NCBI GenBank assembly: GCA_964036665.1
Contig: OZ038530.1
Coordinates: forward strand, 15,633,001 to 15,697,000
Source of the DNA: Gordius sp. MW1
Taxonomy: Eukaryota > Nematomorpha > Gordioida > Gordea > Gordiidae
Direction of reading: 5' to 3'
Length of the DNA: 64,000 bases
A program made the translations under genes and the position numbers. Numbering within the stretch: position 1 is the first letter of the stretch; every line of letters starts with the position of its first letter. Below, in pieces: positions 11,850 through 43,431 of this stretch. The notes under the pieces are model-generated. The model made no database searches. It saw only the letters and a list, made by a program, of their open reading frames with translations, and was not told where the DNA came from.

Positions 11850-13060
11850 TATAAGTCATTTTTTTCATTGGTCAGCAGCCAGGACAGGGTAGAAGTGGTT
11901 ATAAATTCATAATAGTCAAAAAAACGAAAAAATAATTTTTGATTTATAAGAGTCAAAACAAAAAAAGGAAAAAAAAATTTTCGATTCACATTTTGACCAA
12001 TGGTCATTTTTTTTATTGGTCAGCACCCAACGGACGGCCAAAACATCTTATTATCAATGGTAGTAACAGGAACAATTTATTAATGTAAGAAAAAGTAATT
12101 ATTCGAATTCCAAGCGGTTTTAGCAGTAAACAAGCCGAAATCATTCGGTGCGTGACCGAACAGCGTGACAAACAAATTGGAAAGTAAAACAAAAAACAAA
12201 AACAAAAAATTTTCGAATCACATTTTGGCCAATGGTCATTTTTTTCAATTGGTCAGTACCAACAGATGGTCTATAAATCAGTGTTAGCAAAAATGAGGAA
12301 AAAAAAAATTTCGATTCACATTTTGACCAATGGTCATTTTTTTCATTGGTCAGCACCCAACGGACGGCCAAAACGTCTTATTATCAATGGTAGTAACAGG
12401 AACAATCATAATAGTCGAAAAAAAAACAAAAAAATAATTTTCGAATCACATTTTGGCCAATGGTCATTTTTTTCCATTGGTCAGCAGCCAACGTACGGCC
12501 AAAAAGTCTTATTATCAATGGTAGTAACAAGAACAATCATAATAGTCGAAAAAAACGAAAAAATAAACTTGGATTCACATTTTGGCCAATAGTCATTTTT
12601 TTCCTGTGGTCAGTAGCCAGAGGACGGCCAAAAAGGCATATTAACAATGGTAGTAACGGGAACAATCATAAGAGGCAAAAAAAACCGGAAAAAAATCACA
12701 TTTTGGCCAATGGTCATTTTTTCTATCGGACAGCAGTCAGCGGACGGCTAAAAAGTCATAATAGCAATGGTATTAACAGGAACAATCATATTAGTCAGAA
12801 AAAAGGGGGAAAAAAACCTGGATTCACATTTTGGCCAATGGTCATTTCATTCCATTGGTCAGCACCTAACGGACGGCCAAAAAGTCTTATTATCAATGGT
12901 AGTAACAATAACAATCATAATAGGCGAAAAAAACGGAAAAAATAAACTTGGATTCACATTTTGGCCAATGGTCATTTTTTCCATCGGTCAGCAGCCAACG
13001 GACGGCCAAAAAGTCATAATAGCAATGGTAGTAACAGGAACAATCATAATAGTCAAAAAA
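11850..13060. repeat. Minisatellite of about nine degenerate 130-bp units
   Basis: A unit of about 130 bp recurs, with starts of the word GATTCACATTTTGGCCAATG or its variants near 11983, 12215, 12313, 12443, 12572, 12695, 12821 and 12951, and a partial unit near 11850. Each unit also contains TTGGTCAGCA, ACGGACGGCCAAAA and AATGGTAGTAACAGGAACAA. The period is not a multiple of three, so the open frames seen across it change frame from unit to unit and are not a protein gene. A 27-bp GCGTGACAAACAAATTGG-type word stands near 12165 and again at 13178, bounding the main array. Confidence 0.88.
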
Positions 13061-13076
13061 AACCCGGGATTCGAAC
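13061..13076 (-). other. tRNA-like T-arm/B-box relic
   Basis: On the minus strand GGGTTCGAATCCCGGG is a perfect tRNA B-box/T-arm word and is followed by a run of T like a Pol III terminator. No A-box or cloverleaf is found on the upstream side, so this is not a working tRNA. It may be a SINE or tRNA relic caught at the end of the minisatellite. Confidence 0.4.
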
Positions 13077-13266
13077 CCAAAAACTGGTTAAATTAACAAA
13101 AATTAAAAGTAAACTAAAAAGACATTCGGTGCAAGATTCGGTGCAAGACATCCACGTTCGGTGCGCACGCCGAATAGCGTGACAAACAAATTGGAAAGTG
13201 AGCCCATAAATTGCATAGCAATTAATAAAAAATAGTTCAATGTCTCCTAAATTCAACACTGATTTT

Positions 13267-24005: not shown

Positions 24006-27000
24006 TTAATACATCATAAATGAATTTGCAGGGTTGCGTATTTCGCGTTCGGGCGTCTTATTGCTATGACTGGCAAAATTAGAGAGCTTGGGATTAAAGT
24101 AATTTGGTAGAACGTCTTCCCCATTGTCCATGTCATCGTTTATTTCATCTTCCATGGAAGTTTCTAAAGTCTGTGGTGGAGCCATGTCAATTTTATCGTC
24201 GAAACTTCTTACTCTATCCCCTCCCTCCTGCACATTGTGGTTGTAGGTCTGATAGCTGGAATTAGGCTGGCACTGGGAGCAATGTCTTTTTAGCCTGGGT
24301 CGTTGTCGAGATTCCTTGCATTTTATGGCATACTTTAATTCTTCTCCCAATTGGGAACACATGGATTGCTGCATAATAACACCATAAAATAAAGTTGTGT
24401 TCTTAAAAGTTTAAATTTTGACCTAGAATTTTATTTACTAGCCACTCGTGTGATTTAGAGTTGTTAAATTGCTAACTTTCTCTAAACTCCAGACCCGAGC
24501 ACGCACACTGAGTTGCTTAATATGCGCGTTAGCACTCGGTGCACTAGGCATAGGCAGAACAGTAGCCTATAAAAATGCTCGACGGTCGAGCAGATGGTAC
24601 CTGGAGTTAAAGAAAGTTAGCAATTTAAAACTCTAGTGTGATTTATTAATCGCGAGGGATCAAAAAAAGAAATGGGAAGGAACATGTCGCGTTGTTTTAG
24701 CTGGCTAAATATGTTTAAAGAGTAATAGTTGAATTTCTTAGGCAGATCTATAGTTGATAACATATAGACAAGACGGTTAACAAAAACTTTTTGTAAATGT
24801 TACCTTAATCCGCAAATATGTATTTTGCGAAAAAAATGATAAAAAATCGATTTTAGATTTTAGCAATAAGTTAGGATACTAGATTCTAAAAAATTATTAA
24901 ATAACTTAAAGAAGCCTATACTAGGTCATATTTAGGGCTAGTATACATCTATTTAACCTTCTAAAATAAAATTAATCATTTTAAAAGCAACAGATTGGTC
25001 TACTTTGTAACTATCCGCATTTTTTCTCGCCTTCCACACAAATTCAAGGATGCCCACAACGAACGAACAGGCTATACCACCCAGTAATACGACAAAAATA
25101 CCCCCGACATTTTCTAAGCCTAATTCGCTGGCTTTGGATTCTTTAGAAACAGCGTCTCTGTGGCAAGTTACTCCGATATTTTTCCACCATTTGTTATACA
25201 GCAAAGTTATTTGGCCGTTTTCCTGCATTTCCAATATGGCCAAAGAAATCGGATCTCTGAATGGTGATCCTAAGAAAAATAAGTCAAAAACATTGTGTAA
25301 GCTGTGTACAAATGAATATTTTTAATTAAGAAGAGCGCCATTATATTTACATTATATTGAAAACTTTGCTCATAAAAATGAGAGCGATTATATTTATCCA
25401 TTAGAACATAATAAAACTCAACCAAATCTTTGATTGATGGCATTATACCGATCAAACTGTTTAAAGGTTAGGCCAGTCTCTCTGGCTAGTCTATGGTTGT
25501 TCAGATTAGTGTTGTAAAAGCGGCTGGGGTTTGTTTGGTCGGTTTTTGGCTTTAGTCAGCTAAACATAAACAGACCAAAGTTTGATCAAAAAACCCTTGG
25601 ACTGTTTATGTTTAATCGACTAAACCAAAAGCCGACCAAACAAAACCCAGCCGTTTTTGCAACATTAGTTCAGATTAGTATGTGTTAGCCAAAATTGGCA
25701 TACCTAAAGGGGTACCGATGCCATAACCCTTGGAATCTAGGAGGCCACCTATTTGCGTAAGGTTACAATTGCGTTGTATTATGTAATCTATGGTAGTGGA
25801 TTCCATAAAAAAGGCATAATTCCCATCTAGAACTCTCTTGACGCCCTCTTCTTGGGTTTGTGTAAACACTTGAGCTCCCCGATTCTCCATAAATCTCCAC
25901 ATCTTTTTGAATAAGGTCACTTTGGCGTTCTATTTGAAATCATAATGTTACAAGACAACTTATTACCATATCCATTGTCAATAGGGGTCATGTTGACAAA
26001 AATAATAGATCAATAGCTAGTTTAAAAAGTCATAGACTTTTGCTTTAAATTAAAACTTTGGGATGTAATTTATCGTTAATTTTTCATTTTAAGTCTTGTT
26101 TAGCTACCATTTTGGTCAAAAAGTCTTTTCTGGGATTTTAGTTTTAATCCTTATCAACGAGATAAAATTTTTTCCATTACTTCCCTAAGGCAGCAAAATC
26201 TATGAAACAGATTTTAATGCATAGGTTTTTTAAAGTAGGCGTAGACTTGAATTTAACCTTCACAGATTAGAAATAAACTATCCCCAGGACATAAAAAATT
26301 TTTTGAACATTTTTCGTAAATTTAAGAGAGTTTTAACAATGAAATTTAAACATTAATATATTACTCTAAAAAACGTAAAGGTAGAGCCGGATGCCAAGGT
26401 TCCGTAGCTGATAATGGTTTGTTCGGCCAGATCTTCCGCACTCTCTATAGGACTAACCATTTTTTCCACGGTCAAAAAAGCGGCCAAATTAGCCGTGTAA
26501 GATGAGATAAGGATGAGGGTAAAAAACCACCACACTCCACCCACTATTCTTGTTGAGGTGGCACTGGGACTTATATCACTCCCTTGTTGCATCAAAGTCC
26601 CCAATGTGAACCATAGACTGTTGGTTAAGGTAAATCTATTTTCCGTAATCGGAGGTTGATAGTTATATGGGAAGGGTCGAAAAGGAACGGAATTAGAAGG
26701 GTAGGAAATATCTTTGTTGCTCCATGTAGGTGCAGCAGGGGAGAGGTTCGAAGTGTTTTTGAGGTTTAATCGTAACGACTCTCGCTTAATTAAACCGTTG
26801 TGTGGCTTGGCTTTATGGTAGATATCGTTGATTAAAAAATCCACACGATCATACCCTTTAAGCGTATTATGGGCTCCGTAAAATCCATTATTATCCTCCA
26901 CTAACGAAGGTAGGGCAGTTTTGCCGTTATCTTGTCTATGCCCGTTGTGTTGGTGCTTCCATTTTTGAGCCTCTAATTTTATATAACGTAAAACATTATA

Positions 27001-30000
27001 TATAATTTAGAAAAATATACATTCCAAGCCGTTTAAATTCATGCCATGGCTTCGGGTAAGCTCTCTAGCCAATATTGAAGAGGGTCCCTAAATCTATAAC
27101 ATATTTCAAAAAACCTTATCAATTTTTCTTTATTAAAATTGTAAATAATTCGACATTACTCTGGGGTAGAGATACATAATAAAGTTTCAATAAGTTCTCA
27201 TGCTTAACTAGTTACAATCATTGTTAAAAGGGCCAAGGGGACCCTACCTTTAAAACACAATAATTTTTAACAGCAACCATTTTTATTGATTGTTAAATGG
27301 GCGTAGCCAGCTTTGAAATTAGAGGGGGGCAATAATGATTAAAGGATGTTTAGGGAGGGGCAAAATGAACATTTTTTGAAATTTTAGCCATAATTTCAAT
27401 GAATTTCAACAATTTTTTGGATTTAGAGGGGGGCAGCCGCCCCTCCCTGCCCCCCCCCCCCCTTGGCTACGCCCATGAATGCTACTGACCTATTGATTAA
27501 TTATTATAAATTAAATATTTTTAACCTGCTAATTTTGGACTCTTTATCGTTTTTTCCGACTTCTTTTCTGCGGGATCAAGGGCTGTGGCCGAAGCTAATT
27601 GATCGTAACAAAGGTAATGTGTAACACAACAAGGTGGATGTGTATTGACCCATTCATATGGGCTGAATCGGGCGAGAGTAAATAACAGGATGGAAATGCC
27701 AAAAAAGGCGGCAACCACGTAAAGCCATATTTCGATGGAGAGGGGATTTAGGAATGAGAATAGGCCTGGTTTAGATTTTTCCGGTAGCTTGAAGAGTATA
27801 CTAATACCCAGAGACATGAAAGGTTTAGTGAAGTCTACAACTTGTTCCCGTAACCAATTTATAGTCAGCGGAGCTACCGATAGGTCTGCTCGCTGTGTTA
27901 AAAATTAAAAAAATATATATATAACCAGTCTTTAGTCTTTGATAGATAAATATATTTAAATGGAAAAAAGGTTTCATAATAATCAAGTTATAACAAAGTA
28001 TAAGAACAAACATTCAAATGTTTAAATTTGATAATGCATGATTATAAAATATTGGCATTCAACCTAGCCGATTCCGTTGAAACATCGCTGCGCTGTAAAA
28101 TGGATTGATATTTGAACACCCAATATCATTTTACATATTTTAGGCACATATAAAACTTATTTTCTTTCAATATAGATGTTTCAAATAACCGATAAAATTT
28201 TAAATCAGGAGAAATTTATTTCCCCAGAGACCCCTAATATAAAAAAATTTTAATTTAGAAACGCAAAGTAGGAATAATATAAGGTCATAAAGGCGAAAGC
28301 AAATTAAAAGGTTAAATTTTTAAAAACTTATAAATCCTAAATTTAAAAACATTTGAAATTTTTTTATTGTCATGTGCTTTTAATCCAGGGACGGGATGTG
28401 GGCCTTATGAAACAAACCCTATTTTTCTAATATAACTTTATTTAATTAATTTAAATTTAGGCTTAATAGTACACAAGGAAAATAATTTGTTGATTACGTT
28501 ATCCATTAGTTCCCTAATCATTCCGGTCCATTCTCCATCAGCATCAGGGGCGCCGTAGGTGCCATCTGGAACGAGGATTATTTTATACTTAAATCCAAGC
28601 TTTTTGCCCAACTTGTTGAGCATGTCCATGCAAAAACCTTCGAAATGATCGTTCTCCGTAGCACAGCTATTGTCATTGTGGCATTTGCTATACATTACAT
28701 AAGGACGCTCCTAAGAAATATCAGATATAGCATATATAAACTAGAGGTGCGCGCGGATCAAGTGCACACCTCTAATATAAACTAAACTCTAAACAGACTA
28801 TATAAAATTTAAATCTTATGCCATTTTTAGTTAAATATATTAACCTTTACATTTGGTTCATATTTTCTTACACGAAATTTTAAAATTGTCCCTCTTACCA
28901 TTATTTTAATAATGTTTATTTACAAAATAAATGTGACATTTAGTTGGTTGAATTATTGATTTATTTATAGTAAAGAAAATATCAAATCTTTTTCTCATAT
29001 TTCTTGACAATGCGTAAGCAGTAATATATTAATATTAGCAATAAAAATGATATCTTTTTAATTTTTAATCTTAATAGTTAAAAAAATAACTCTACAATGT
29101 TTATTATGTTTTAAGATTAATTATTATATTAGATATTGGCTTACTAATATGGTCGTAACGATAAGTGGTCGCTAAAAACATAAAGAATATATATAGTTGT
29201 TACAATATATAACAATATAAAATTAGTGAACTTTATAATACTAAAATTGAAGTTATGATGAGACTCTTATTGGAAGCATATTTTGCCATGTATTTTGAGT
29301 CTTCCTGTTTAGGTATTACGCTTAATCCTCCCGTAGGTGTCCAGTATCCTACCTTTTCAATAGTGTACAATAAGAATTAAATAATCATTTTGGCCCAATC
29401 GATAAAATATTTATAATTGTTGGGACTAATTTAAATTAATAACCGAACCCATAATTTTTTTGAAAAAAATTTGAGATTGAACTCGTACATTCATTTATAT
29501 AACATTTTATTTTCATTTTTAGACCAAGTTTTTTAAATGTAGGCTACACAAATAAAAAATGAAATTTTTAATTTGCTAGTAGTTATTATGAGTTCTTTTT
29601 GAATAAAAAGCATTTACTCATTTTGGAAATAAATTTGCTTCAATAATTAATTAATACCTTATAGAGCCCTTTAAAGTCTAGTTCCAGAAGATCTAAATTG
29701 AAGTAGGATCTAGCGCCGTTTTTGAATTTTATCGGTCCCGTAAGTCCCGTCATTTCTACCTAAATATATAATGCAATTATCAGATTTACAGAAAAAACCA
29801 TTTTAATGACTATTTCAAATATTTTATAAAAGTACTGTTATCCACGGGCGTAGCCAGGTTTTGGATTGGGGGGGGGGGTGTATTGAAAGAATTTTTTGTC
29901 ATTTAGGGGGGGGGGGGCCTCCTGCCCCCTGGCTACGCCCATGCTGTTACCCTAACACTCGATTAAGTTTTAATGCAATGAGTTTTTTACAAGTATGCGC

Positions 30001-33000
30001 ATTATAACTTTATATCTATACATTATAATTTATACCACCAGAATTATAGAAATTAGCTATCATGGCTACATTTGAAGTTTAATTTTTATAAAAATTAAAA
30101 TGTTAAAACGAAATTTTGGATTAAAGGAAGAAAAAAAAATTTTGACACTGTTGAATACAAGTAATAAATTGGCAAAAGGATCAGGATCAATATTGCAAAT
30201 TGTACTGAATTTAGGTAATTGAATAAACTGGTCCCATAGCCTGTGGGCTGTTCGTGTTTGCATGAAATGTTGGGAGCTTTTATGGTCATACTCCTATCGG
30301 CTAATTGTAAGCCATGGGCCAAAACCCATATTGAATCGTACATCATAGCTGCTTCAGTCTATTTTATATTTTAAAATTCAAAAAATATATAATAGAGCTA
30401 ACCCAAAGTTATATTATAATTTTAAGAAGATATTTGTTATCTATTATGTATTGCTGATATGGATTATTATTTATTTTAATATATAAGCTAATAAATTCGT
30501 AAATTTTTAAATTAAATAAAAATTATTTACATAAATTTCTTTATCTTTTAGAGGGTAGTTTTTGGAAAATCGGTCAAATAAAACTTGATGTTCGTATTTC
30601 TTTTCCAGCAATTTCATATTGGGGTCGTAAAAAACTTTGAAACCATTCATGTATACACCATTATACTTGTAATCTTCTAAATCTAACGTTTCGATATCCT
30701 ATGTAATAATCCATAGTCATAAAAAGTCTACTATTTTATTGTTTGTTTTTGCAACGTTTCTTATATTAACATTGTACTTATTATTACCCTAAAGTCAATC
30801 TGTTTAATAGTAATTATTCTCATAATCCTACAAGTATCAATAAATTGGTTAAATAAAGTTAATAGCATCTAGTCTAGAATAAAACAAAATAATTTAATGG
30901 GTTTATTATCCTAACGTAACTGCTTGTATAAGTTTCTAAATGATTTTTCGCATAGATAAATTGATGATTTAAAATTTATAAAAAAAATATATTAAATATG
31001 TTACCAGGTTTGTTAAAAGGTAGTGGTAATTTTCGTTCATCATTTCAAGTTGCAATCCCTATAATAGTAATCAATTAAAAATGTAAATTATTTTTTTATG
31101 TAAGTCGAATTTAAAAATCTTAGCCCAATCTTATATGTAATGTAATAAATAAAAATCTGCATCGGCTAATTTGGTGTAATCATAATACAACCACAAACTA
31201 TTTAGCTTTGTATTTTAATTTTGTCAAAACAATTTGAATTTATCTATCATTTTTATATATGATTCCAAAGTTCTTTCAAATATAATACTAACAAATAAAT
31301 TGAGAATATTGAAAAGTATCAAATGAATACACTGGGTAAAATTTGATGATTGTTAGATATATTAAATAACCAAGCAAAAATCAATTAAAATTTAATTAAA
31401 TTTAGGGAGTGTCCCAAAACTTTGTTCTGTCACTTACATTACAGCACGCGAGAAAAAATTGATTAACAAAGAATCTAGTAGTGTCCTCGTATACGTCCTT
31501 AGAGATTTTGCTTACTAACCGGTCCCCCCTTCCCCTAAAAATGACATTACACATTTATTTTGTCGCGGTTTTTTATAATTAAATTTTTTATATATTTTTT
31601 GCAGAGAGATAATTGAATCGAGATAAAATGTATCACATACCCTACCCGTTAACTATATTTTCGTGACATAAAATCTATTATTTTTCTGTCTGTTTCGAAA
31701 AATAAATACTTATTATTTCATTTGTTTTAGTAATTAATGATATAGGTGACATTAAAAGAAAAATTTATAAAACAAATTTAATGAAAAAACTCATAAAGTT
31801 TGCGTTTAATTTAAGGCCTATGTATATATGTATATATTTATGTGAGATGATGTATATCAGAAGTCTTGGGCGTACGCAGGGGGGGGGGCGGCTCCCCCCC
31901 CCTAATTTTATAAAAAAAATTCCAATACAAAAACCCTTAAGAATTAAAAAAAATTATGTTTTGCCCCCCCCCTAATTTTGCTCTGCCCCACCCTCATTAG
32001 GCTCTGCCCCACCCTAATTAGGCTCTGCCCCCCCCTCCGGATAGTTGGAGAGTCGAGACCTTTTTTTTTTTTGCTCTCAGGAAAATTTGAGAGGAAAATT
32101 TTTGGATTTGGATAGTCGAGACCTTTTTTTTTTTTTGCTCTCAGAAAATTTTTTTTTAATTTGCCCCCCCCCCCCCCTAATTCAAAACCTGCGTACGCCC
32201 ATGTCAGAAGTATAATATGGGCATAAGTTTCCAGCAACTTTTTTTAAATATTTCCATCTTGACCATAAATTGTTTACAATATTTACTATGAAACGTATAA
32301 AATGAATTATTACTTGCCATAAAAAGTAATAAGACTACGACCCCTTCTTATATTGTGCCTTATTTTGAATTCTAATTAATTTTTTTTTTATAAATTACCG
32401 TCTTTAAAATGGATTGAGTAAATTTAGGAGTTCCGTCGATGATGATTTTATTCCAGCCCATTTGTTTAAGCATTTTCATGATCCTTATGCGAGATTTTGG
32501 TGTAATATTAATCACTCTCACCTTCATAGTTTCTGAAGGTGGTTCTTTTATAATACTCTGAAGATGTATTAGAGCTAATGAAAAGATAATAACTTTATTA
32601 ACTCATATTTTTTATGTTTAATAATATTTTTTATTATTATCTATATTTCTATTTTTTCAATAAAAATCATATTATTCTTTGTTGCCATAAAGTGTAATAG
32701 ATTCAAATATTTTTGGCAATTAAATTTTAATCATTTCGCTGGCGTGATGCAACTTCATAAAAACGTAATAAATATCGCCGTTAAAAAATCCAATGCAACT
32801 TCGTTTATTTATTGTACAACCGATCATAGCATTTCTAAAGTTATTGGTTTTAACTACTTATTATTTTTAAAATTAAAACACATATATTGGTTTTAGGGCT
32901 ATCAATTTCAAAGTCAATAAATTATAAATCAAGGAAGTAATTAACTTAGGCTTATTAAGGAAAGTCAGATAAGGGTAGCTAAAATCTCAAAATACTGAAA

Positions 33001-34616
33001 TTGAGTCCCATCATTTATTAAATCCTTGCCCCGCCCATAATTTTAGGTCTTAATAAAATAATTGAATTATTTTTATCTCTATAATTGCGACCGTTCTTGG
33101 CAGTCTGGGCCAACGCTAAGTCATAATTTACCCTTAAAAACTGGGCAAGAAAAAACGTGAAAAGTTTCCAGATAGAAGTTAAGTATAGCTCTAACTAACG
33201 CAATTTTAATCCATTAATCAATGTCAGGAGACTTTAGCCTTTTCCCCATTATTCGCATACATTTTTTAAATTATTTTTCCGATTCTACAACAATTACATT
33301 TCATATTTTATGTTTATAGATTATTTCAAATTTAATCTACTGCTAGCGATGAAATTTAGAAAAGCAGCAAATATTGACCCTACCCGTGTAGTGCTGGTAG
33401 AGTATAATTACATCATGCCATTTCCAATGCTTGATGGCGTCCAAAAAAGCCTGACTTAATATCCCGCTTTGAGGGTAGACGTTAAGGGATATGGGCGACG
33501 CTTTGGAGTCACTGTGATCCCAAATGGCTTGAATGTGGGGCACCTCTAAGGATTCACAGACTGATTTAACGTGTGACAACAACATCAAATCTTGCGGACC
33601 GATTATTGCCATGGACCCACGTTTAAATTCTTCACACACTGACCGTGCCAATAAATTAAAATATTAAATGCAATTAAATTTTATAGGTACCAATCAATCA
33701 ATACGCGTTGGGTAAACATTTGAATATCATGATGAGATATTAATATTTACAAATAGTTATATACCGATTTTTAATTGGATAAACTAAAACCTCGGGTTTA
33801 TAGCGCCTTATTATTGTTTCATTTGAGGGTTCATCCTGTTGGAATTATATGGGAAAAGGGATAAGTAATGTGGATATTTAATAAATTTTGTTAGCTCAAA
33901 AACTAAAATTTAAGCAGATTTTTTTATATAAATTATAGCCAATCTTAAATAGTTAATCACTAGTTCAAAAATTGCTGATAACGACTTTTCTATTTTATAT
34001 CCAGTCTTGTGTTTTATATTTAATTGATTGATGTTACTAATTTTTGATACACTAGAAAAATGGGTAAGATATCATTCGCCAGAACAATCTTCTATTATTT
34101 CCTAAGGTTTAATTATAAATTTAAATAGAATATAATTGTTCAAATCGGGTAATAATCATAATTTCTAGCTTTTGAAATATGTTGGAATTAAACATAGAGT
34201 TAATTTAATACCTTTATATATAGTAATAAATAGCAGCTAAGAACCATTTATGGTGTTATATATAAGCTTCATTAAAATTCAATTTATTAAAAATGGCACA
34301 TACACTTAGACGATCATTTCTAAAGCTCATCTAATTAAATCGTCACTAGCCGTCTAAAACATAAAGAATTCACAATTCATATATTAAAAAGAATTATAAA
34401 CTTAATAAACAAAAATTTGGCATTTTGGGAAGGATATTAGTTATATTTTTAAACCTTGACCATAAGATGCGTAACTCTTCCAACTTTTAAGATTAAATTC
34501 TTGGTAAACTAGTTTAGACTGTGGCAAAATGTCTTCGTTCGTATTAATGGATTCAATGGCAGCTTTGACAAACAACTCTAGCAGTTTATTGTCGTTCGTA
34601 TAATCATAGAATACAC
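24006..34616 (-). CDS. Kainate-type ionotropic glutamate receptor, 14 exons; first exon(s) not located
   Basis: Exons in transcript order: 34461-34616, 33384-33638, 32399-32574, 31005-31058, 30531-30698, 30206-30358, 29658-29759, 29242-29352, 28498-28710, 27526-27892, 26365-26972, 25704-25929, 25004-25269, 24006-24368. All join in frame: about 1072 residues without the signal peptide. Order: N-terminal domain ([15 protein letters not shown]), binding lobe S1 ([22 protein letters not shown]), M1, pore loop with an unedited Gln (TLMQQGSD), M3 ([16 protein letters not shown]), lobe S2 ([14 protein letters not shown]), M4 and a cytosolic tail starting [17 protein letters not shown]. The glutamate-contacting Arg, SGST and Glu are kept. 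Oddity: about 150 residues lie between M1 and the pore loop, against under 20 usually. Introns host several transposons. Confidence 0.92.
24456..24635. mobile_element. Small palindromic hAT-like element (TAGAGTTG family) in a kainate receptor intron
   Basis: 180 bp, ends TAGAGTTGTTAAATTGC and GCAATTTAAAACTCTA, flanked by a perfect 8-bp duplication GTGTGATT (24448-24455, 24636-24643). It is the inverted-orientation counterpart of 20629-20831. It sits in the last intron of the receptor gene, 88 bp upstream of the final exon's acceptor. Confidence 0.88.
25507..25667. mobile_element. 161-bp palindromic hAT-like element in a kainate receptor intron
   Basis: Ends TAGTGTTGTAAAAGCGGCTG and CAGCCGTTTTTGCAACATTA; nearly the whole element folds back on itself (TTTGGTCGGTTTTTGGCTTT against AAAAGCCGACCAAACAAAA). 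Flanked by a perfect 8-bp duplication GTTCAGAT (25499-25506, 25668-25675). It lies between the exons at 25704-25929 and 25004-25269. Confidence 0.9.
27296..27477. mobile_element. CATGGGCG-family element (copy 3) in a kainate receptor intron
   Basis: Well-preserved interior with GGGGCAGCCGCCCC and both ends (ATGGGCGTAGCCAG, TTGGCTACGCCCATG). No convincing target duplication (GATTGTTA against AATGCTAC). It lies in the intron that separates M1 from the pore-loop exon. Confidence 0.75.
29843..29943. mobile_element. CATGGGCG-family element (copy 4), short form
   Basis: Only 101 bp: CACGGGCGTAGCCAGG, two G-runs, then CCTGGCTACGCCCATG. Flanked by CTGTTATC (29835-29842) and CTGTTACC (29944-29951), 7/8. 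In a kainate receptor intron. Confidence 0.82.
31865..32203. mobile_element. CATGGGCG-family element (copy 5), long CGTACGC subtype
   Basis: 339 bp, ends CTTGGGCGTACGCAGG and CCTGCGTACGCCCATG, with a perfect 8-bp duplication TCAGAAGT (31857-31864, 32204-32211). The interior has GCTCTGCCCCACCCT tandem words and two copies of GAGTCGAGACCTTTTTTT. A reverse-orientation relative is at 57311-57591. It lies in a kainate receptor intron. Confidence 0.88.
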
Positions 34617-39209: not shown

Positions 39210-39386
39210 CATGGGCGTAACCAAGGGGGAGGGCAGGGAGGGGCGGCTGCCCCCCTCTAAATCCAAAAATTTGTTTAAATTCATTAAATTATGGCTAAAA
39301 TTTCAAAAAATGTTCATTTTGCCCCTCCCTAAACATCCTTAACTCATTATTGCTCCCCTCTAATTCCAAAGCTGGCTACGCCCATG
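39210..39386. mobile_element. CATGGGCG-family element (copy 6)
   Basis: 177 bp, CATGGGCGTAACC ... GGCTACGCCCATG with the GGGGCGGCTGCCCC core, flanked by TTCATTAG (39202-39209) and TTGATTAG (39387-39394), 7/8. Confidence 0.85.
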
Positions 39387-43267: not shown

Positions 43268-43431
43268 CATGGGCTTAGCCAGGGGATGGTAGGAAGGGGC
43301 GGCTGCCCCCCTTTAAATCCCAAAATCTTTCAAAATTAAATAAAAATATGGCTAAAGTTTTAAAAAAATATTATTTTGCCCCTCCCTAAATCATTATTGA
43401 CCCTCTAAATATAATCCTGGCTACGCCTATG
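43268..43431. mobile_element. CATGGGCG-family element (copy 7)
   Basis: 164 bp, CATGGGCTTAGCCAGG ... CCTGGCTACGCCTATG, flanked by a perfect 8-bp duplication ATTAAGGC (43260-43267, 43432-43439). Confidence 0.9.

Follow-up and report, generated by a model that had tools for sequence, protein, structure and literature searches.

A window of 64,000 nucleotides from the hairworm Gordius sp. MW1 (contig C4, OZ038530.1, positions 15633001-15697000, of GenBank assembly GCA_964036665.1) carries on its minus strand a kainate-type ionotropic glutamate receptor gene in which the stretch from the first membrane segment (M1, ending SPYEW) to the pore loop (FTLTN) measures 154 residues. The corresponding stretch of GluK2 (5kuf) has 16 residues, which leaves 138 extra residues in the hairworm receptor. 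This added segment is open and exon-like in composition. The chances seem to us about even that the gene encodes a functional receptor subunit, its frame being intact, with a translated, largely flexible and perhaps regulatory cytosolic arm that adds about 138 residues. A preliminary description of the window had counted an open frame of about 150 residues ahead of the pore loop, with about 130 of them in excess, and the latter figure is close to the 138 counted here; the 154 residues include 0 stops. Positions given below without a contig are those of the window, and the genome searched comprised 211.8 Mb in 12 contigs.

Structure of the gene and identity of the receptor

The gene runs on the minus strand of the window from at least 34616 down to 24006. 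Thirteen exons, from 34616 to 25004, were joined in a single frame of 953 residues with 0 stops, and a C-terminal exon, the first base of which is 24368, carries the receptor frame on to its own stop codon. GT and AG are present at the splice sites used, AG/GT border exons A and B, and the A-B join, of phase 1 at both ends, yields one GAG codon. The borders initially proposed for these two exons (27892-27526 and 26972-26365) were correct within one base. The signal-peptide exon or exons were not located upstream of 34616. Exons b to i (28498..33638, minus) supply the remaining amino-terminal domain (ATD) and S1, and the parts of the gene are as follows.

34455..34616, minus: first ATD exon read, from frame joining
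33638-33384, 32574-32399, 31058-31005 and 30698-30531, minus: exons b to e of the ATD/S1 series, from frame joining and the ANF_receptor match
30358-30206, 29759-29658, 29352-29242 and 28710-28498, minus: exons f to i of the ATD/S1 series, from frame joining and the ANF_receptor match
27892-27526, minus: exon A, with the end of S1, pre-M1, M1 (ending ARFSPYEW) and the first 41 loop residues, from the frame and the Pfam matches to Lig_chan-Glu_bd and the start of Lig_chan
26973..27525, minus: intron A-B, 553 nt, phase 1, CAG/GTTAAA ... TAAAATTAG/AG, with a repeat resembling a miniature inverted-repeat transposable element (MITE)
26972-26365, minus: exon B, with the remaining loop, the pore loop (Q site), M3 with SYTANLAAF, and the start of S2
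25929-25704 and 25269-25004, minus: exons C and D, with S2 and M4, the M4 exon being 25269-25004, in frame
24006..24368, minus: C-terminal exon with the stop codon

The receptor matched the Pfam families ANF_receptor, Lig_chan-Glu_bd and Lig_chan, all above their cut-offs, with Lig_chan in two stretches; in a separate Pfam search of the frames of the window, Lig_chan fell below its cut-off. The receptor matched 369 PDB sequences at E 0.001, and among the best 60 of these GluK2 (5kuf) came first with 411 bits, followed by further GluK and GluA chains, the best GluA reaching 366 bits. The joined protein contains the gating string SYTANLAAF and LMQQGSD; SYTANLAAF is presumably the gating motif, and the roles of the glutamate-binding residues are likewise taken by us as those of known receptors. 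By its domain order and its closer resemblance to GluK than to GluA among the best PDB matches, the receptor is kainate-type, as had been proposed. It resembles GluK2 in domain order, in its gating and binding strings, in the Q at the Q/R site and in the position of the loop, and differs from it in loop length. The short M1-pore loop that serves as an intracellular cap in known GluK structures is not matched by the 154 residues found here, and it is a trait of those structures rather than a criterion of the subfamily.

The extended loop: comparison, coding signals and origin

When the receptor was compared with GluK2 by phmmer, the query aligned as two pieces, residues 1-85 and 221-432, that abut at one GluK2 site. 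Of the sequence encoding the loop, 124 nt lie in exon A and 338 nt in exon B. A search of the genome for the channel family returned eight stretches assigned to at least five genes, among them a sister kainate-type gene (C4:22.708-22.709 Mb) whose best PDB match is GluK2, with a loop of 16 residues and no alignment gap, and an AMPA-type gene (C8:6.43 Mb) whose best PDB match is GluA3, with a loop of 11 residues and without an intron there; both query proteins were joined by hand from genome frames. Two further receptor genes, on C1 and C2, appear by eye to be NMDA-type. Both kainate-type genes have an intron in the loop, which in the sister gene is of phase 0, not 1, and lies, as read by eye, 8 residues past EW and 8 ahead of FT. 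Measured against the sister sequence, also read by eye, the loop divides as follows.

27526..27649, minus: 5′ part of the loop, ending KSPKLA, in which 27625-27526 (100 nt) are in excess over the sister gene
26635..26972, minus: 3′ part of the loop (AQKWKHQ...PPITENR), in which 26972-26659 (314 nt) are in excess over the sister gene

The preliminary description had suggested that the insert could be specific to this lineage; the short loops of the sister kainate and AMPA-type genes lend that idea support within this one genome. It had also placed the loop at under 20 residues in known receptors, which is not strictly true. Loop1 of AMPA receptors, likewise cytosolic and situated between M1 and the pore loop, is named an intracellular domain in the available part of one report (PMC6505502) and has 21 residues in GluA3. 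Moreover, the Epsilon ionotropic glutamate receptors (iGluRs) are described as bearing an insertion in the M1-pore loop that is most distinct in ctenophores (PMC6307864). The “cysteine-rich loop” of ctenophore Epsilon receptors belongs to a different subfamily, of which the authors found no members in the protostomes studied, as far as the accessible text of that article tells (PMC6307864), and its likeness to the present insert is one of position and description, not of compared sequences. With loop insertions already published for Epsilon iGluRs, the new part would be a kainate-type receptor carrying one; in the literature searched, mostly titles and the openings of abstracts, no kainate receptor bearing a comparable insert was noticed.

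Several properties speak for a coding segment. Stop triplets make up 8.25% of the triplets in the introns of this gene, which gives a chance of about 1.7e-6 for 154 open codons, and when the insert was shuffled by single bases 20,000 times, only 2 of the resulting sequences remained open. The GC content of the insert (0.42) is close to that of the remaining coding sequence read (0.404) and far from that of the introns (0.272). In windows of 300 nt, the codon log-odds of the six insert windows lie between 0.242 and 0.354, vs. at most 0.185 among 138 intron windows. The frame and the GC content thus bear out the earlier view of the extra segment as open, exon-like sequence.

The composition of the insert is led by N, P, and K. 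No hydrophobic stretch was found in it (the best 19-mer has a mean hydropathy of 0.63) and its charge-hydropathy value of -0.084 falls, by a small margin, on the disordered side; together these values make a flexible arm likelier than a new domain. Read by eye, the insert has a Cys-rich start, a Lys/Ser stretch, and short motifs such as KRES and YDQL/YDRV-like strings, the functional meanings of which are assumed by us.

Comparisons with known and repeated sequences gave no relative of the insert. Searches of the genome, which were a loose first look, used the exon B part at the DNA level and the whole insert at the protein level, and returned only the insert itself. An origin as a transposon or repeat is not supported by these searches, and the neighboring MITE-like repeat is confined to the intron. 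As a candidate known domain the insert had no Pfam match above the cut-off (Phospholip_A2_1, at E 0.059, was taken as chance) and a best PDB match of E 0.38. No internal duplication was found, the best match, to the C-tail, having E 0.36. The frame of exon B, 217 residues long because it runs slightly into the intron on either side, gave 14 pattern matches in prokaryote contigs and 2 in viral contigs, none of them confirmed, in collections of which neither is meant to include animals.

The location of the insert around the point of the sister gene's loop intron suggests that it may have arisen by an outward shift of splice sites. The donor in use lies 100 nt beyond the point matching the sister gene and the acceptor in use 314 nt upstream of it, and the sum of 414 nt equals exactly 138 codons. 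Both splice sites of the loop intron would have moved outward, and the intron would have given up about 100 nt at its 5′ end and about 314 nt at its 3′ end to the coding sequence. Such a shift is the simplest account of the insert. Its limits are that no intermediate was seen and that the AMPA-type gene is intronless at the loop. The site that matches the sister intron (27625) reads TGT/GTTACA in the window gene, a poor donor (0.91) by a splice matrix built from this gene.

Neighboring features and the mitochondrial genome

The repeat in intron A-B belongs to a family with 39 other scored genomic copies (93-98% identity) among 3186 first-look candidates. Its end motif, GGGCGTAGCCA, occurs 13 times in the window with up to one mismatch, vs. 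0.23 expected. The element itself, the further copies of its ends and the other features of the window are as follows.

27295..27485 (query range), minus: MITE-like element with GGGCGTAGCCA ends, inside intron A-B
29846-29940, 39213-39383 and 43271-43428: more copies of the GGGCGTAGCCA end motif, near these positions
63237-53153, minus: intermediate filament gene, with parts of the Filament rod matched at 63234-62620 and 55535-55302; a piece after the rods weakly resembles a lamin tail domain (E 0.049, below the cut-off)
12188-13096, plus: overlapping open frames of a recurring peptide, an apparent tandem repeat by the list of open reading frames (ORFs) only

Contig C12 is a mitochondrial genome of 14,798 bases with the gene order cox1, cox2, atp6, cox3, nad3, nad4L, nad4, nad5, nad2 (minus), nad6, cob, rrnL (minus), and nad1 (minus). 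Pfam matches confirmed COX1, ND1, ATP6, and cytochrome b, and a family common to ND2, ND4, and ND5 confirmed those three; ND6 scored below its Pfam cut-off (30.9 vs. 33.2), and cox2, cox3, nad3, and nad4L were assigned by eye. The large rRNA was matched through bacterial and archaeal Rfam models, and rrnS was not found in this contig. The ORF list shows a short tandem array immediately upstream of cox1. The contig holds 30 inverted repeats of 17-108 nt (11 in one piece of the contig and 19 in the other), of which 25 are 100% complementary and some overlap one another; most lie inside frames read as genes and a few ahead of cox1, by an untallied impression. Long palindromes in mitochondrial genes are presented as an extraordinary trait of Nematomorpha (PMC6649704), and the palindromes and gene order of this contig make a nematomorph of the Gordioida the probable source. 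The nad4L-nad4-nad5 and nad6-cob blocks, nad2 on the opposite strand and rrnL ahead of nad1 fit the order of Gordioida, as far as the available parts of two reports describe it (PMC6649704; PMC10380579). The palindromes and gene order speak against a bryozoan source; an insect source is disfavored by the nematomorph-like mitochondrial genome and by the intermediate filament gene of the window, a kind of gene not known from insects.

Competing explanations and possible function

A translated arm has to be weighed against several alternatives. The least probable, to which we give very little credence, is an artefact, i.e., a wrong gene model, an assembly error or a decaying gene. The gene model rests on genomic DNA, which leaves room for such an error; against it stand the intact frame over 13 exons and the C-terminal exon, the conserved functional strings, the splice sites in use, which carry GT and AG, the failure of the genome searches to find a second copy, and the 24.1 Mb length of the contig. 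It is also unlikely, though less so, that the long form is a minor one and that most transcripts drop all or part of the insert. This explanation would draw on two splice choices, namely removal of the exitron given below or a join of donor 27649 to acceptor 26784 that leaves a loop of 50 residues.

26636..26854, minus: hypothetical in-frame exitron, 219 nt, donor AGG/GTATGA (7.69), acceptor -2.58; its removal would shrink the loop to 81 residues

The exitron donor at 26854 outscores the donor used at 27525 (5.07); its acceptor, however, is very weak, as is donor 27649 (2.0). When 49 in-frame splice choices were ranked by summed score, the full-length join came first, and the four choices with loops of <45 residues have negative scores at donor and acceptor alike. 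These scores come from a crude local matrix of 12 donor and 12 acceptor sites of one gene, by which the same sites were scored.

Neutral expansion is a serious rival, though a less probable one than the arm proposed here. Splice-site drift or exonisation of the intron would have lengthened a tolerant loop, and the segment would be translated without a specific role. The location of the insert around the sister gene's loop intron, the searches of Pfam, PDB, and the genome that yielded no relative, and a composition led by N, P, and K all accord with it, whereas the 138 open codons and the exon-like, not intron-like, GC content count against it and are not decisive. If the expansion were neutral, this GC content implies that the insert has been coding long enough for its composition to shift.

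Several observations weigh against the arm favored here. The receptor and its insert are known in this work from the genomic DNA of one species alone. The lowest insert window (0.242) lies just below the lowest (0.246) of 35 coding windows, which were scored with a codon table trained on themselves. The codon score of the insert is 0.239 in the true frame vs. 0.294 and 0.268 in the two alternative frames on that strand, so the score reflects composition more than coding, and the exon A part of the insert alone scores weakly (0.079). The exon B acceptor (3.03) is outranked by 11 of the 12 other acceptors, and acceptor 26784 (3.52) scores above it, a point that also favors alternative splicing, and the join of 27649 to 26784 ranks fifth of 49. 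The exon A donor is below 9 of the 12 other donors, which range from 3.43 to 8.27 in a matrix from which it was left out. The short motifs of the insert were read by eye, and such motifs are frequent by chance. Finally, the CUB domain of a candidate auxiliary subunit, introduced below, fits cubilin and neuropilins better than Neto2 by summed phmmer scores.

What a cytosolic arm at this place might do can be considered from GluK2, in which the M1-M2 loops are described, in the available part of one article, as building a dome beneath the pore, with four side portals where ions leave, and as touching the C-terminal region of Neto2 (PMC12580572). Since the loop forms the pore cap and contacts Neto2 there, an arm of 138 residues would have to be situated at the pore mouth. 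Each tetramer would have two to four such arms beneath the pore, and these would most likely work like a second cytoplasmic tail, as a platform for docking or modification that draws on the Cys-rich start, the Lys/Ser stretch, and the short motifs and that alters the cap, rectification or the docking of auxiliary subunits. The gating, trafficking or scaffold-binding role suggested in the preliminary description is, on the position of the loop, no more than plausible. A bolder proposal, which we consider improbable, is a hairworm-specific regulator of the pore mouth, in which the arms would replace the GluK2-type cap and govern, directly from the M1-pore loop, the exit of ions, the block by polyamines or the docking of Neto, while being regulated themselves by phosphorylation or by lipidation at the Cys cluster; a channel would carry four arms, or two where it is a heteromer that includes the short-loop sister subunit.

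The genome also holds candidate partners. L041 (C3:1009246-1013560, minus) has one CUB and one LDLa domain, in that order by family search, and a hydrophobic stretch by eye. Its match to Neto2 (E 2.4e-29) is the ninth among its PDB matches, with cubilin and neuropilins higher by the summed scores. Judged by its domains, it could be a CUB/LDLa membrane protein and a candidate Neto auxiliary subunit. L037 (C4:5962003-5964579, minus) is a CUB-type membrane protein with an LDLa domain seen by eye only and Neto2 eleventh among its PDB matches; it could be a candidate Neto or related synaptic auxiliary protein. CUB matches at C11:39-67 kb and C6:3.40-3.43 Mb pair with equal scores, so C11 may represent a haplotype copy left unplaced.

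If real, a receptor with 138 extra loop residues would be a natural test of the function of the cap and of the tolerance of the pore mouth, and of whether receptors gain regulation from the M1-pore side and not from the C-terminal tail.

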